Part shown: positions 20,418-25,491 of the stretch, in pieces
How positions within the stretch are numbered: position 1 is the first letter of the stretch
How the letters are laid out: each line of letters opens with the position of its first letter
Origin: Bradyrhizobium sp. NAS96.2
GTDB lineage: Bacteria > Pseudomonadota > Alphaproteobacteria > Rhizobiales > Xanthobacteraceae
Assembly (NCBI RefSeq): GCF_001908235.1
Contig: NZ_LGHK01000024.1
Location: forward strand, 1-64,000
Direction: 5' to 3'
Length of the DNA: 64,000 nucleotides
Made by a program: the position numbers and the translations under genes
The notes under the pieces: generated by a model
The model's input: only the letters and a program-made list of their open reading frames with translations
Databases searched by the model: none
What the model was told of the DNA's origin: nothing

Positions 20418-20457
20418 GCGCAGGGGGTGGCTAGGCCGAACCTGCGTTCGGCGCGCG

Positions 20458-21882
20458 TCAGCGGGCCTCCAGCGGACGCAGCTTCTCCACCTTGCCCTGG
20501 GTTTCGACGAGCAGTTGCTTCATGAAGTCCTTGTTGCGCTTCAGCCAGGGCTCCAGCGTTTGCCGCACATCGCCCGGCGACTTCTTCTCGATGGCCTGCG
20601 CGAGCCGGGTCTGAAACGTCCCCCAATCCTTGAACATCTCCTTCAGAAGCGCATCGTCGGAGATGTTGATCGTTGACTTGATGTCGCCGACGGTTTCGAG
20701 CTCGCGCATGTTGCCCTGTCGCAGGATCGAATCGAGGTTTTCCAGGCATTCGTGGTAGCGCTGCAGCAGATCGTCCCATCGCTTGGCGCTGAAATCATCG
20801 TCGAGGTCCTCGACCGCGTTGTAGAGCGGTTCGAGAAACGACCATCGGAAGCGCCGCGCCAGTCGCAGCAGGATCGACAGGAACACGATGTCCTTCGGCA
20901 TGTTCTGCGCGACCATCAGCCTTGGATCTTCGCTGAATGGCGGCATCGGAACGAAGATGATAACGATCGAGAACGGCGTGTTGTCGAGATATTCGAGCCG
21001 GGCGATCACCGGTTGATATAGTTTCAGATCGCGGAAGATCGGGCTTAGGACCTGCTCGCGGCTTCGCCGGCTGGCAATATCCACGTCGGAGAACGAGTTC
21101 GCGACATAGCTCGCCAGTTCGTCGAGCCAGGCGCCGCTGTCGTAGCGGTTTTGGGCGCGGAGCAGGTCCTCCCAGTCGAGCTCAGCCGCATCGGGACCTG
21201 ACAGCAGCGTGGTGGTGGCGGGATCCGCCTCCAGCCTGGCATCCGTCAGGAATCCGCGCGCACGCTCCGCAGGCGGCAATGCCTTCAGCGCATCGGCCTT
21301 TTGCCGGAACGACAGCTCGTCGCTGAACACGACGCGAAGCCGAAGGCGGAACAGCTCTTCCGGGCGGGTGATCTGCATGAATTGCGCGTGCAGATCCTTT
21401 ACCGCCTCGTTGAAGTCGCGGGCATGATTGGCGTTCAGTTTCGGGCGCAGCGGTACGGGACCGAAGGTCGGCCGGACGAACAGATCCTCGAGAAACCGCC
21501 GCACCTCGTCGTCGCCGATCCCGTAGAACTCGTTCTCCGCCAGCATCGGAAACGAGGGTGAGGAGTCAACCGAGAACCACAGCACCTTTGACGTGAGCTT
21601 CAGCGCGCGCTTGTAGCCGTCGAACTGGGAAATCTCGGACGCGCACCATGTCCAATTATGCTCGGCGTTGGTGTGGATGAAGATCAGGCAGTCGGCCCTC
21701 GCCGTGTTGTCGATCATCCATTGGCGCCATTCGGCGCCGCCGGGAATTTCCTCGCACACAAAGCATTCCACCGAACGCTGTCCGTCCAGGCTGCTGAGAT
21801 ATTCGAGCCGAGCCTTCAAGAGGCGCGCGAGAAATCTGTCTTCGGCACGATGGCTGATAAAGACCGAGAAATCATTTGGCAT
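20458..21882 (-). CDS. TIR-domain protein with large C-terminal region
   Basis: A 474-residue protein. Residues 4-110 form a TIR domain: FSVFISHRAEDRF at the first strand, FVCEEIPGGAEWRQWM at the BB-loop region, CLIFIHTNAEHNWTWC, and the WCxxE motif with Glu83 in WCASEISQF, the residue that is catalytic in NAD+-cleaving TIR domains. Residues 150-474 have no motif I recognise; they are mixed alpha/beta, then helical and charged. The gene diverges from a patatin gene across 398 bp, next to SLOG-like and NDT/TPR genes. The likely role is an NAD+-consuming or signal-generating component of a conflict system; that is inference from context. Confidence 0.83.
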   Translation of the reverse strand: MPNDFSVFISHRAEDRFLARLLKARLEYLSSLDGQRSVECFVCEEIPGGAEWRQWMIDNTARADCLIFIHTNAEHNWTWCASEISQFDGYKRALKLTSKVLWFSVDSSPSFPMLAENEFYGIGDDEVRRFLEDLFVRPTFGPVPLRPKLNANHARDFNEAVKDLHAQFMQITRPEELFRLRLRVVFSDELSFRQKADALKALPPAERARGFLTDARLEADPATTTLLSGPDAAELDWEDLLRAQNRYDSGAWLDELASYVANSFSDVDIASRRSREQVLSPIFRDLKLYQPVIARLEYLDNTPFSIVIIFVPMPPFSEDPRLMVAQNMPKDIVFLSILLRLARRFRWSFLEPLYNAVEDLDDDFSAKRWDDLLQRYHECLENLDSILRQGNMRELETVGDIKSTINISDDALLKEMFKDWGTFQTRLAQAIEKKSPGDVRQTLEPWLKRNKDFMKQLLVETQGKVEKLRPLEAR

Positions 21883-22280
21883 GGCAAAATCCGATCTGCA
21901 TGAATCCTATGCGACGGCTGGCCGTTGCTCATCGGCCGGATGCCGCGGCTGCACGTCTCGCCGCGGACCGATGATAGCCCGTCTCTGAAAATTGCGATCG
22001 CCGGCCGCGAAAAAGAAAAACCGCCTGCCAGTGAACTATCTCACTATACCTTAGGGTGTATCATGTGCAACATGCGCAGGGAGCCGGCGCGCGATGCTTG
22101 TCCTGCTCCGGAATGCACTGACTAAAATTTTTCGAAAACATCAGCCGATGTGTCGACGTGAGCACATCGCTTCATTTCATGCCCCGGCGCCGTGCGCGCG
22201 AGGGCGCGACCAATTGAGCCTTCGGCCGTGATCGGTCGGCCGTATCGAGATCAGCAACAGTCATAGTCGGAGGGCCAGCC
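21883..22280. promoter_or_regulatory. divergent intergenic region with inverted repeat
   Basis: The 398-bp gap between the TIR and patatin genes holds no supported gene and must contain both promoters. It is more AT-rich than its surroundings around 22040-22075 and 22125-22140. An inverted repeat CGATGTG-N10-CACATCG lies at 22146-22169, 111 bp before the patatin start, and is a candidate operator. GGAGGG precedes the patatin ATG. Confidence 0.5.
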
Positions 22281-23420
22281 ATGCCGAAGACGAAGCAGCA
22301 GCATCTCGATCGTGACGCCGGGCCGAAGCGGATATTGGCGCTCGACGGCGGCGGCATTCGCGGCATCCTGACGCTCGAATATGTCGGCGCCATCGAGGCG
22401 ATGCTGCGCAAGAGGTTCGGCAAGGACGACCTGCTGCTCTGCGACTATTTCGATCTGATCGGAGGCACCTCCACCGGATCGATCATCGCGGCCGGGCTTG
22501 CCTGCGGGATGACCGTGGACGCTTTGAAGAAGCTCTACCGCGGGATCGGCACGGACATCTTTCAGGAATCGTTCTGGCGGCGCGGACTGCTGGCGCCGAA
22601 ATTCAATTCCGACGCCTTGCAGCACGCGCTCGATGCGCAGCTCGGCGCCGACACGGCGCTCGGCGGCGATCACGTCCGCACCGGCCTGATGATCATGACC
22701 AAGCGGCTCGATACCGGAAGTCCCTGGCCGCTGCACAATCATCCGGACGCGCCCTACGCCAAGCAGGACGGCGCGTTGCGGCTGACGCAAGTGGTTCGCG
22801 CCAGCACTGCGGCCCCAACCTATTTCAAGCCCGAGGAGATCAAGATCTCCGCGCGCGACGGTCACACGGTCAGTGGCGCCTTTGTCGACGGCGGCGTCAG
22901 CCCGTTCAACGATCCGGCGCTGCAGCTATTGATGCTCGCGGCACTTCATGGCCACGGCTTCCGGTGGCATAGCGGCAAGGACAAGCTCCTGCTGATCTCG
23001 GCGGGGACGGGCGTGTTCAAGTCGACGTTTTCGACCGACCAGATCGTCCACATGCCGGCGGCGGAGCAGGGCGTGCGGTCGCTGCAATCGCTCATGGACG
23101 ATTGCGGACGGCTCAATCACGGCATGCTGCAATGGCTGACAAATTGTCTGACGCCATGGCCGATCGATCGCGCGGTGGAGGACATGGCGGCGGACAGCCA
23201 GAGCGGACCGCAACTTGCGACCTATGCGCGCTACAACGTGCTGCTGGAGACGGGCTGGTTGAAGACGACGGTTGCCATCGACCGGACGCCGGAGGCGCTG
23301 GCAAAGGTCGCGGCGATGGACGACCCGTCCAACATGGACCAGCTCGCCGAGATCGGAGCGCTCGCCGCGAAGGTGCAGGTCAAGCCGGAACATTTCCCGC
23401 CGGCCTTCGATATCACGTGA
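22281..23420 (+). CDS. patatin-like phospholipase (CapV-like)
   Basis: A 379-residue patatin-fold lipase. The oxyanion loop is DGGGIRG (residues 22-28), the nucleophile is Ser64 in GTSTG (62-66), and the dyad Asp203 lies in FVDGGVSPF. The start RILALDGGGIRGILTLEYV and the size match bacterial patatins used as membrane-degrading effectors in immune systems such as CBASS (CapV), where a signal nucleotide activates them. No CD-NTase is present here. It is the first gene of a plus-strand run with the SLOG-like and NDT/TPR genes, which suggests it is the effector of that system (inference). GGAGGG precedes the ATG. Confidence 0.87.
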   Translation: MPKTKQQHLDRDAGPKRILALDGGGIRGILTLEYVGAIEAMLRKRFGKDDLLLCDYFDLIGGTSTGSIIAAGLACGMTVDALKKLYRGIGTDIFQESFWRRGLLAPKFNSDALQHALDAQLGADTALGGDHVRTGLMIMTKRLDTGSPWPLHNHPDAPYAKQDGALRLTQVVRASTAAPTYFKPEEIKISARDGHTVSGAFVDGGVSPFNDPALQLLMLAALHGHGFRWHSGKDKLLLISAGTGVFKSTFSTDQIVHMPAAEQGVRSLQSLMDDCGRLNHGMLQWLTNCLTPWPIDRAVEDMAADSQSGPQLATYARYNVLLETGWLKTTVAIDRTPEALAKVAAMDDPSNMDQLAEIGALAAKVQVKPEHFPPAFDIT

Positions 23421-23532
23421 TGCCGCATAGCGCGCTGCCCTGACACTCGGGGTCCCGGCTTCGACAGGAGATTCGCCTTCAGCTAAGTTTGTCATCGAGA
23501 CACAATGATCCAACCATCAGTCGGGTGTCACG

Positions 23533-24117
23533 ATGACCACGGACCAACGCGCCGGATCACCTAACGTAGTGGTTCTCTTCAGCGGTCACATGATCGATGC
23601 GCCAGATCGAAAAACGCCTCGCTTTCCGCCGGACAAGGAGCCTGCCGCGGCCGCTGCGATCGCCGATGCGCTTGCGAAGATCGGTGTCGCCAAGGGCGAC
23701 CTCGCGATCTGCGGCGGCGCCTGCGGCGGCGACCTGCTGTTCGCGGAGGCCGCTCTCGCGCAAGGCATGGGGCTTGAGATCTACATCCCGTTCGACGAGC
23801 CGACCTTCCTTGCCGGCTCGGTCGATTTCGCCGGCGGCAATTGGCGCGCGCGCTATCTCGCGGCGAAATCGCGCGCGACGCTCCATGTCATGCCGGACGA
23901 ACTCGGCCCGCTGCCGGCCGGCGAAAACGCCTATGAGCGCGACAATCAATGGATGCTGGAGCGGGCCGCCCGGTTTGGCGACAAGAAGCTCGCCTTTGTC
24001 TGCCTGTGGAACGGCGAAGGTGGCGACGGTCCCGGCGGTGCCAAGCACCTGATGGATGAAGCGGGGCGCAAGACGACGTGGGTTTACTGGCTGGATACGC
24101 GAAAATTATGGGACTGA
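23533..24117 (+). CDS. SLOG/LOG-like Rossmann protein
   Basis: A 194-residue soluble protein. It opens with a hydrophobic strand and FSGHMIDAP, then has a glycine-rich nucleotide-binding turn ICGGACGGDLLFAEAAL (residues 59-75), followed by LEIYIPFDEPTFLAGSV and NWRARYLA. This is the layout of SLOG-superfamily domains, proposed to bind or process nucleotide-derived ligands in bacterial conflict systems. It lies 112 bp after the patatin gene and 12 bp before the NDT/TPR gene, so it probably shares their transcript. The family call is by pattern; catalytic activity is unknown. Confidence 0.6.
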   Translation: MTTDQRAGSPNVVVLFSGHMIDAPDRKTPRFPPDKEPAAAAAIADALAKIGVAKGDLAICGGACGGDLLFAEAALAQGMGLEIYIPFDEPTFLAGSVDFAGGNWRARYLAAKSRATLHVMPDELGPLPAGENAYERDNQWMLERAARFGDKKLAFVCLWNGEGGDGPGGAKHLMDEAGRKTTWVYWLDTRKLWD

Positions 24118-24129
24118 AGGGATTGCGAT

Positions 24130-25467
24130 ATGCCGTCGTGTTTCATGATCATGCCCTACGGCCGCAAGCCGACCCACGCCGAGCCCAAGCTTGGTCCGGC
24201 CGAAATCGATTTTAACGCGCTGTGGGATCGCGGCTACGTTCCGGTGATCAAGGAGCTGGGCTATGAGCCGGTTCGCGCCGACCAGGACACCGGTGCGCTG
24301 ATCGTCGGCCAGATGCTGGAGCGGCTCTATTTCGCCGACCTCGTGCTGGCGGACATGACGATCCCGAACGGCAACGTCTATTACGAGGTCGGTATCCGCC
24401 ATGCGGCGCAGAAGACCGGCTGTGTTCTGCTTGCCGCCGACTGGTCGAAGCAATTGTTCGACGTCGTGCAGATGCGCACCGTGCGCTACCCGCTCCCCGA
24501 GGGCAACATCTCCGACGACACCGCAGCCGGTCTCCGGCCCAGGATCAAGGAGGGCATCGTGTCGCTCCGCGACGGGCTCTCGCCGATGCCTCAATCGATC
24601 CCCGGCTATCCCGAAGATGTCGATCCGACGAAGGCGACGACGACCAAGGAGCAACTCGCCGAACTCGCTGCGTTCCAGACCAAGGTGCGCGAGGTGCGTG
24701 CCGCACCGCATGCCGAGCGCATGCAGCGCGCGCAGGCGCTGATCGCCAGCGAGGGCACGCCGCCCGCGACCTATCCGATTGCGCTCGCATTGCTGCTGCT
24801 GCTCCGCGACAGCGTCGACAAGACCACGGACTGGAGCTGCGTCCTCGACTTTGCGGCGGGCCTTCCGAAGAAGTTCAAGGACGTCCCTGAAATCCAGGAG
24901 ATCCGTGAATTCGCCGCCGCCTATGCCGGCAACAATCTCCAGGCCATTGCGGCGCTTGAGACGCTGATCAGGACGGCGGGGCCGACACCCGAACGCCTCG
25001 GTCTGATGGGCGGTCGCTACAAGCGCCTGGCGAGAGCAGCCACATTGGCCGTAGACAAGCGGCAAGCCCAGGCGAAGGCGATCGAATATTATGAGCAGGG
25101 TATGCAGATCGACCTCAACGCCTATTATTGCTCGAGCAATTTGCCTCGTCTCTATCGCGCGCGTGCCCGGGCTGGCGACGAGGAACGCGCGCAGACCGCG
25201 TTGCGGCTGACGATCGCCGCTTGCGAGCGTGCCAGACGGCTTCAGGTCGGCGACGAATGGACGCGTCAGACGTTGCTCGCCGCGGCTTTCGACCTCGGCG
25301 ATCCCGACAAGGCCGACGAACTGGCCGACGCGGTGATCGATGAAGGCCCCGCAGCATGGAAGATCGACAGCGTGCTCGGTGACCTCGAGGCCAGCGTCAC
25401 GCAAGTCACCGACGCCGCAAAGCGCGCGCGATTGTCCGCCGTCATCGACAAGATCAAGGCGGCCTGA
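24130..25467 (+). CDS. NDT-like domain plus TRAFs-binding/TPR (DUF4071-like) protein
   Basis: A 445-residue two-part protein. Residues 1-115 resemble nucleoside 2-deoxyribosyltransferase-type folds: CFMIMPYGRKPT, an acidic DLVLADMTIPN strand, and NVYYEVGIRHA with Glu86 at the place of the NDT catalytic glutamate. Residues 190-445 are helical repeats (IEYYEQGMQIDLNAYYCSSN, RLYRARARAGDEERAQTAL) like the TRAFs-binding/DUF4071 region of animal ASK (MAP3K5) kinases. Related bacterial TPR scaffolds have been proposed to sense NAD+-derived signals. AAGGGA supports the ATG. It is the last gene of the patatin-SLOG run. Confidence 0.65.
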   Translation: MPSCFMIMPYGRKPTHAEPKLGPAEIDFNALWDRGYVPVIKELGYEPVRADQDTGALIVGQMLERLYFADLVLADMTIPNGNVYYEVGIRHAAQKTGCVLLAADWSKQLFDVVQMRTVRYPLPEGNISDDTAAGLRPRIKEGIVSLRDGLSPMPQSIPGYPEDVDPTKATTTKEQLAELAAFQTKVREVRAAPHAERMQRAQALIASEGTPPATYPIALALLLLLRDSVDKTTDWSCVLDFAAGLPKKFKDVPEIQEIREFAAAYAGNNLQAIAALETLIRTAGPTPERLGLMGGRYKRLARAATLAVDKRQAQAKAIEYYEQGMQIDLNAYYCSSNLPRLYRARARAGDEERAQTALRLTIAACERARRLQVGDEWTRQTLLAAAFDLGDPDKADELADAVIDEGPAAWKIDSVLGDLEASVTQVTDAAKRARLSAVIDKIKAA

Positions 25468-25491
25468 TCGCGCGCTTCTTGCATGTCGGCC

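Follow-up and report, generated by a model that had tools for sequence, protein, structure and literature searches.

What is a protein that resembles the central regulatory region of human ASK1 (MAP3K5) doing in a bacterium, and what does the enzyme-like head fused to it contribute? The protein, here called DRHyd-TPR-S after its two halves, is encoded in a 64,000-nucleotide stretch of the Bradyrhizobium sp. NAS96.2 contig NZ_LGHK01000024.1 (hereafter the window) by an open frame with an ATG start on the forward strand (24130..25467, +; 445 aa). It is the last gene of a four-gene cassette and begins 12 bp beyond the stop codon of a SLOG gene; a Shine–Dalgarno-like GAAGGGA, judged by eye, overlaps that stop just before the DRHyd-TPR-S start. 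The full-length frame (445–459 aa) is kept in 16 of 17 related loci from genome contigs, a set that is no census and reaches close relatives only, since it was gathered with exact short peptides. Named Bradyrhizobium records account for 11 of the 17, including all five at 88–99% identity, and four of these five (L018, L019, L020 and L022) have the gene order of the window. The exception is the Mesorhizobium copy (L031), truncated at 231 aa, with what looks by eye like a transposase ORF immediately behind it (L031:4823-6257). The copy on the R. leguminosarum plasmid CP050566 is annotated in two pieces. Plasmid homologues carry the RefSeq label "TRAFs-binding domain-containing protein" (58 plasmid records match, five of them examined). 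Matches in phages (5 of 50,697 records) cover 28–34% of the query at its head end, and eight loci on viral contigs match nothing beyond residue 158.

The C-terminal half of the protein (residues 178–445; 24661..25464, +) is an ASK1-type TPR scaffold, which among solved structures comes nearest to the ASK1 regulatory region. Residues 251–340 match Pfam TPR-S (PF20308) at 7e-14, with 52.7 bits against a curated cut-off of 27.6, which places the protein in that family. In the same Pfam scan a match to MAP3K_TRAF_bd (PF13281; E 3e-5), collinear over residues 84–420, does not reach the curated cut-off and stops 0.4 bit under it (23.7 versus 24.1 bits). Among the members of our homologue alignment (E<=10), TPR-S is matched by 14 of 14 and MAP3K_TRAF_bd by 12 of 14, at best with 1.2e-40. 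"TRAFs-binding" is a family label only; to our knowledge, TRAFs are not expected in a bacterium. A profile built from 13 C-terminal halves and searched against 177,635 PDB sequences returned two ASK1 entries at its top, 5ulm (E 1.4e-13) and 8qgy (1.2e-12), followed by a designed TPR (8.9e-6), and the same two entries also ranked first for a whole-protein profile. The AlphaFold2 model of the whole protein (mean pLDDT 81.9, pTM 0.59; five models spanning 67.6–81.9) was aligned by VIA-align over 251 residues to 5ulm, the best of the chains aligned, with an rmsd of 3.7. Foldseek placed 8qgy first (8.9e-6) and 5ulm only nineteenth (1.2e-3). Because a Z near 13 is unremarkable for a repeat protein, the weight is carried by the margin in VIA-align together with the sequence result. 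The notion that the ASK1 likeness is merely what any two TPR superhelices share, to which the Z of 12–15 reached by many kinds of TPR protein and the Foldseek placing of 5ulm behind other TPR proteins would lend themselves, is highly improbable and, as a sole explanation, is ruled out by the sequence profile (53.9 bits for ASK1 versus 28.4 for the next family), by VIA-align (Z 18.1 for 5ulm and 17.1 for 8qgy versus 15.3 for the best non-ASK1 TPR) and by a single Azospirillum homologue (L032:2830-4281, minus strand), whose sole PDB matches at E<=0.01 are the two ASK1 entries (1.2e-6 and 2.2e-6) and which scores 1.2e-40 with MAP3K_TRAF_bd, the top score among the proteins scanned.

The head (residues 1–125; 24130..24504, +) is, judged by its sequence, of the DRHyd/NDT class, a predicted Rossmannoid domain with a conserved Glu, on modest evidence (E 0.011 and 4.6e-5). 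A head profile retrieved 13 PDB sequences at E<=5, of which 12 are DNPH1/Rcl (0.011–0.14) and one is unrelated (1.1). Against an alignment of 12 PF05014 deoxyribosyltransferase-family members from relatives, hhalign gave the head an E of 4.6e-5 and a probability of 68.5, as compared with 0.001 (probability 21.6) against TIR, 0.12 against SLOG and 0.41 for the TPR half as a control. In this alignment YYEVG of the head falls over the invariant Glu of the PF05014 members, placing Glu86 (codon 24385–24387) in the column of the Glu of DNPH1 and NDT, which we take to be catalytic. The likeness to DNPH1/Rcl and the nucleoside 2-deoxyribosyltransferases thus lies in this Glu column and in the strand-helix order of the model, but the window protein has no PF05014 (Nuc_deoxyrib_tr) match at E<=10; among the 14 members of the homologue alignment a single one matches that family (E 0.037). 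In the AlphaFold2 model the head alternates strands and helices, with pLDDT below 50 at residues 54–58 and 111–113. Since matches to the TPR part take up the Foldseek and VIA-align lists, the lack of NDT structures among them is uninformative about the head.

Conservation follows the putative active site. In an alignment of 21 homologues, compiled without L013 and L031, which are broken, and without the matches L002–L012, residues F5, M8, P9, G11, K13, R49, A50, D51, D75, N80, N82, Y85, E86, G88, R90 and H91 are invariant (21/21). A wider 19-row set has Glu86 in 18 rows and D75 and N80 in all 19. The sole exception at Glu86 is the Azospirillum paralogue L032, which has Gly there and is possibly a catalytically dead, purely regulatory copy. 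The R49-A50-D51 columns are changed in L032, in L053 and in six fused proteins, the last of which keep the D75/N80/E86 group. The sequence would be compatible with either an NADase or a nucleotide hydrolase and does not separate the two. Both structural claims of the preliminary description, which had likened the C-terminal half to the DUF4071/TRAFs-binding repeats of MAP3K5 and the N-terminus to a deoxyribosyltransferase with Glu86 at the catalytic place, are borne out by these comparisons: the two outcomes that it had named against itself, a C-terminal half without similarity to ASK1 and a head of another fold, were put to the test, the second by sequence, and neither came true.

The two halves differ in how closely they are held. 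Between the window and the Bradyrhizobium alleles L023–L027, identity is 87–90% in the head, 53–58% in the linker and 62–74% in the TPR segments. Over nine pairs, dN/dS is 0.01–0.08 for the head and 0.13–0.29 for the TPR part, and the linker ranges from about 0 to 0.70; the controls gave 0.05–0.16 for SLOG (nine pairs) and 0.12–0.24 for patatin (seven pairs). These rates indicate a tightly constrained head. We rejected an unusually fast-evolving sensor, since the TPR values are close to those of the patatin control. When the window is compared with L023, L025 and L027, dS is 0.65–0.96 for head and TPR part and 0.34–0.38 for patatin, and because it exceeds that of patatin in some pairs, allele exchange of the DRHyd-TPR-S gene is possible.

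We then turn to the partners of the gene, a setting that the preliminary description did not mention. Immediately upstream lies a protein of 194 aa (23533..24117, +) without a significant family match of its own in scans that included Pfam, PADLOC and NCBIfam. Its model (pLDDT 73.8) identifies it as a SLOG protein with a predicted fold nearest YpsA/DprA/LOG, as YpsA 2nx2 is the best match (Z 14.0), followed by DprA (9.7). A Rhodococcus homologue, fused to patatin, matches Pfam YAcAr SLOG at 4.9e-4, under the cut-off. The predicted effector is a patatin-like phospholipase of 379 aa (22281..23420, +; Pfam Patatin 4.2e-25), whose translation shows GGGIRG, GTSTG and DGG stretches and which matches the PADLOC phospholipase effector at 4.9e-46 and NCBIfam CBASS_lipase with 121 bits (cut-off 200). 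A TIR protein of 474 aa (20458..21882, −; Pfam TIR_2 1.1e-6) diverges from the operon. Scans for promoters and terminators were near chance (one promoter-like match versus 0.8 expected, four terminator-like versus 3.4).

Together the four genes occupy about 5.04 kb (20454..25489). This stretch has no counterpart in the relatives G058 and G065, in which the flanking matches, both aligning at 87–89%, lie 53 bp apart; in G003 the flanks are likewise adjacent, separated by about 90 bp. As the flanks adjoin in these three genomes without the block, the four genes form an accessory block. Its G+C of 0.627 lies within the range of the window (mean 0.645, sd 0.013, for 5-kb stretches), so base composition gives no support to a foreign island.

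Among 117 same-genus genomes, the window's own included, close copies of DRHyd-TPR-S (E<=1e-60) occur in seven and the TIR protein (E<=1e-40) in eight, in one of which a stop interrupts the match. The patatin (E<=1e-40) was matched in 17 genomes and the SLOG protein (E<=1e-4) in 21. All eight TIR genomes also have the patatin. Every patatin genome (17/17) has a SLOG match nearby, with 35–1527 bp between, a co-occurrence with a hypergeometric value of 5e-17 when shared descent is ignored. Seven of the 17 have the gene order of the window; five (G010, G062, G075, G082 and G120) have a fused DRHyd-TPR-SLOG gene beside patatin, G120 with a separate SLOG in addition; four (G023, G047, G070 and G077) have the pair next to an unfused DRHyd gene, arranged differently, the repeats of G077 scoring below the TPR-S cut-off; and the one remaining (G104/L057) has the patatin–SLOG pair with no DRHyd-TPR-S in the 8 kb read. 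The patatin rows of G062 and G082 contain one stop in the matched stretch, yet open 392-aa frames cover the patatin profile. Four SLOG genomes lack such a patatin: G097 has a fused DRHyd-TPR-SLOG plus a separate SLOG, G071 a TPR-S-SLOG-cyclase chain with its cyclase match just under the cut-off, G072 a SLOG-TPR-S-patatin chain with a more distant patatin, and G020 a SLOG with no other cassette member in the 8 kb read. The product of L061:2706-4592 joins TPR-S to a SLOG-like part and to a nucleotide-cyclase domain that scores weakly.

The exchange of modules is clearest in G010, whose left flank, TIR and patatin align with the window through 23422, after which one 691-aa DRHyd-TPR-SLOG gene replaces the separate SLOG and DRHyd-TPR-S genes; this locus retains the lipase and, on its domain content, would carry both signalling functions in one gene. 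DRHyd-TPR-SLOG fusions are present in six relatives (L049–L052, L058 and L060). One 1047-aa chain (L062:1285-4428) unites SLOG, TPR-S and patatin, so that only the DRHyd head is missing from it, and in Rhodococcus (L014) DRHyd-TPR-S is followed by a fused SLOG-patatin. In Azospirillum (L032) a TPR-S-patatin fusion lies between two DRHyd-TPR-S genes, and in Spirosoma the patatin gene comes directly after DRHyd-TPR-S; neither has a SLOG match. Elsewhere the partners vary: L029 (Rhizobium) and L031 have SLOG, and patatin went unmatched there over 17.3 and 13.5 kb; L033 has patatin with no SLOG match, and neither was matched in L030, L034 (both with short flanks) and L015–L017. L021 and L023 have lost an internal part of the TIR gene and keep the other three genes intact, and G086 has an additional 981-aa TIR gene behind DRHyd-TPR-S.

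Other homologues neighbour SLATT proteins, a CAP12/Pycsar-type TIR and a TIR-nuclease. A TIR fused to a DNA/RNA non-specific endonuclease (L050:6925-8082) diverges from the patatin of a fused-type cassette. In Bradyrhizobium sp. Oc8 (L028, 1999-15269), a protein carrying both TIR_2 and CAP12/Pycsar TIR domains, a TIR-NB-ARC and a further TIR surround a SLOG/DRHyd-TPR-S pair; this cluster is effector-rich and has its patatin on the opposite strand. On Agrobacterium and Rhizobium plasmids (L015:3460-9332 and L016:3456-9332), a homologue with a head 42% identical lies beside a conserved run of carbohydrate kinase, TIR, HhH-GPD DNA glycosylase/lyase, 7-cyano-7-deazaguanine synthase and second TIR genes, plus DUF4231. 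The base-modification enzymes beside these TIRs may be a separate defence set.

These observations bear on whether the cassette is a defence system at all. It could instead serve signalling in stress or through membrane lipids, or be a selfish unit of the addiction type, in keeping with the unremarkable G+C of the block and with a PADLOC scan that names its parts and no whole system; the accessory distribution, the exchange of effectors and of modules, and neighbours of the kind seen in conflict systems all speak against this, and we consider it unlikely.

At about even confidence, we propose instead that DRHyd-TPR-S does the sensing and signalling in a four-gene accessory conflict cassette, probably anti-phage and acting by abortive infection. 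The TPR scaffold (residues 178–445), which is less conserved than the head, would detect an invader cue or a messenger. The DRHyd head (residues 1–125) would then be switched on, and Glu86 would serve to break an N-glycosidic bond, with NAD+ or a related nucleotide as the most likely substrate, to yield a small messenger, to which the divergent TIR protein may contribute. The YpsA-like SLOG protein would bind this messenger and license the patatin lipase, and the ensuing breakdown of membrane phospholipids would kill or arrest the infected cell. The cassette would thus probably be an infection-triggered suicide system. What was observed is which domains are present, that the putative active site is conserved, and that the genes are physically linked, recur as fusions and come or go together; catalysis, ligand binding, activation and the order of the steps are inferred. 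Several observations run counter to the model: the TIR gene has an internal deletion in L021 and L023 despite their other three genes; patatin and SLOG are not constant partners (L029–L034 and L015–L017), and one patatin–SLOG pair (G104/L057) has no DRHyd-TPR-S in the 8 kb read; the fused-type proteins do not keep the R49-A50-D51 columns; and the dN/dS of the TPR part is close to that of patatin.

A different division of labour is conceivable, though we favour it only weakly. The TPR scaffold would read an NAD+-derived signal made by the TIR protein, the DRHyd head would act as an additional effector by degrading NAD+ or nucleotides, and SLOG-patatin would form a parallel branch. DrHyd domains are described in PMC9503650 as NADase effectors and signal makers alike; the TIR protein of eight of the 117 same-genus genomes is accompanied by patatin in all eight, and homologues with other partners adjoin TIR genes. 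However, L021 and L023 keep the other three genes with the TIR internally deleted, and the pairing of SLOG with patatin in 17 of 17 genomes leaves a second reader unneeded.

The proposed cassette was compared with two known systems that share its parts. Its patatin resembles the CBASS phospholipases, as seen in the PADLOC and CBASS_lipase scores above; the patatin effector of CBASS is named CapV. Pfam scans of the four cassette genes found no cyclase family, and CBASS membership is ruled out because the defining CD-NTase cyclase is missing from the cassette. TIR and SLOG also occur together in Thoeris, in which SLOG reads the messenger (PMC9503650). There is, however, no SIR2-SLOG ThsA here, SLOG being either free or fused to patatin or DRHyd-TPR, and the cassette TIR matches ThsB at 0.018 only. 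With no ThsA-type match among the cassette genes in Pfam and PADLOC, Thoeris membership is ruled out.

As a member of the TPR-S/MAP3K TRAFs-binding family, the protein stands above the TPR-S cut-off and 0.4 bit short of PF13281, and here its partners are SLOG and patatin; three RefSeq-named plasmid homologues that we examined (L015–L017) have the same DRHyd-TPR layout and a similar size (424–447 aa). ASK1 has a kinase part, whereas the 445-aa protein is without one, and although 5ulm and 8qgy are the best match of residues 178–445 in sequence and in VIA-align, identity is only 13%. Burroughs and Aravind (2020) reportedly predict, of the kind invoked in the alternative division of labour, a TPR scaffold that serves NAD+-derived signals and became part of the ASK signalosome. 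PMC9503650 treats TIR, DrHyd and SLOG as members of a single Rossmannoid class concerned with making, sensing or processing NAD+-derived signals in immunity, and places cADPR sensors in the YpsA-like SLOG clade; PMC7159879 agrees on the role of the class in making, processing or sensing them. The suggestion of the preliminary description that one chain might produce or bind a signal derived from a nucleotide and also be its reader would agree, by analogy, with the account of this class in PMC9503650. The literature searched, mostly without subscription papers, yielded no experimental study of the bacterial family. The resemblance of bacterial proteins to ASK1 is not new, as the Pfam TPR-S family, the RefSeq name and a bacterial source of ASK-signalosome parts are already in print. 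Since both the bacterial family and the signal class have been described, the protein is a further member of a known family.

More tentatively, we suggest that DRHyd-TPR-S and the YpsA-like SLOG protein might constitute a self-contained, exchangeable sense-and-signal module, which would license patatin through an NAD+-derived or nucleotide messenger made by the DRHyd head, as a cyclase-free counterpart of CBASS and Thoeris and as a living bacterial version of the module ancestral to the animal ASK1 regulatory region. The replacement of the SLOG and DRHyd-TPR-S genes by one fused gene, at the same locus and beside a conserved lipase, hints at parts that work together. What the locus adds to a known family is a testable and well-delimited example rather than a new kind. 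If the proposal is true, a short bacterial operon would permit a bench test of the original role of the ASK1 scaffold, the sensing of a nucleotide or an invader cue, with lipase-driven lysis as a simple readout.
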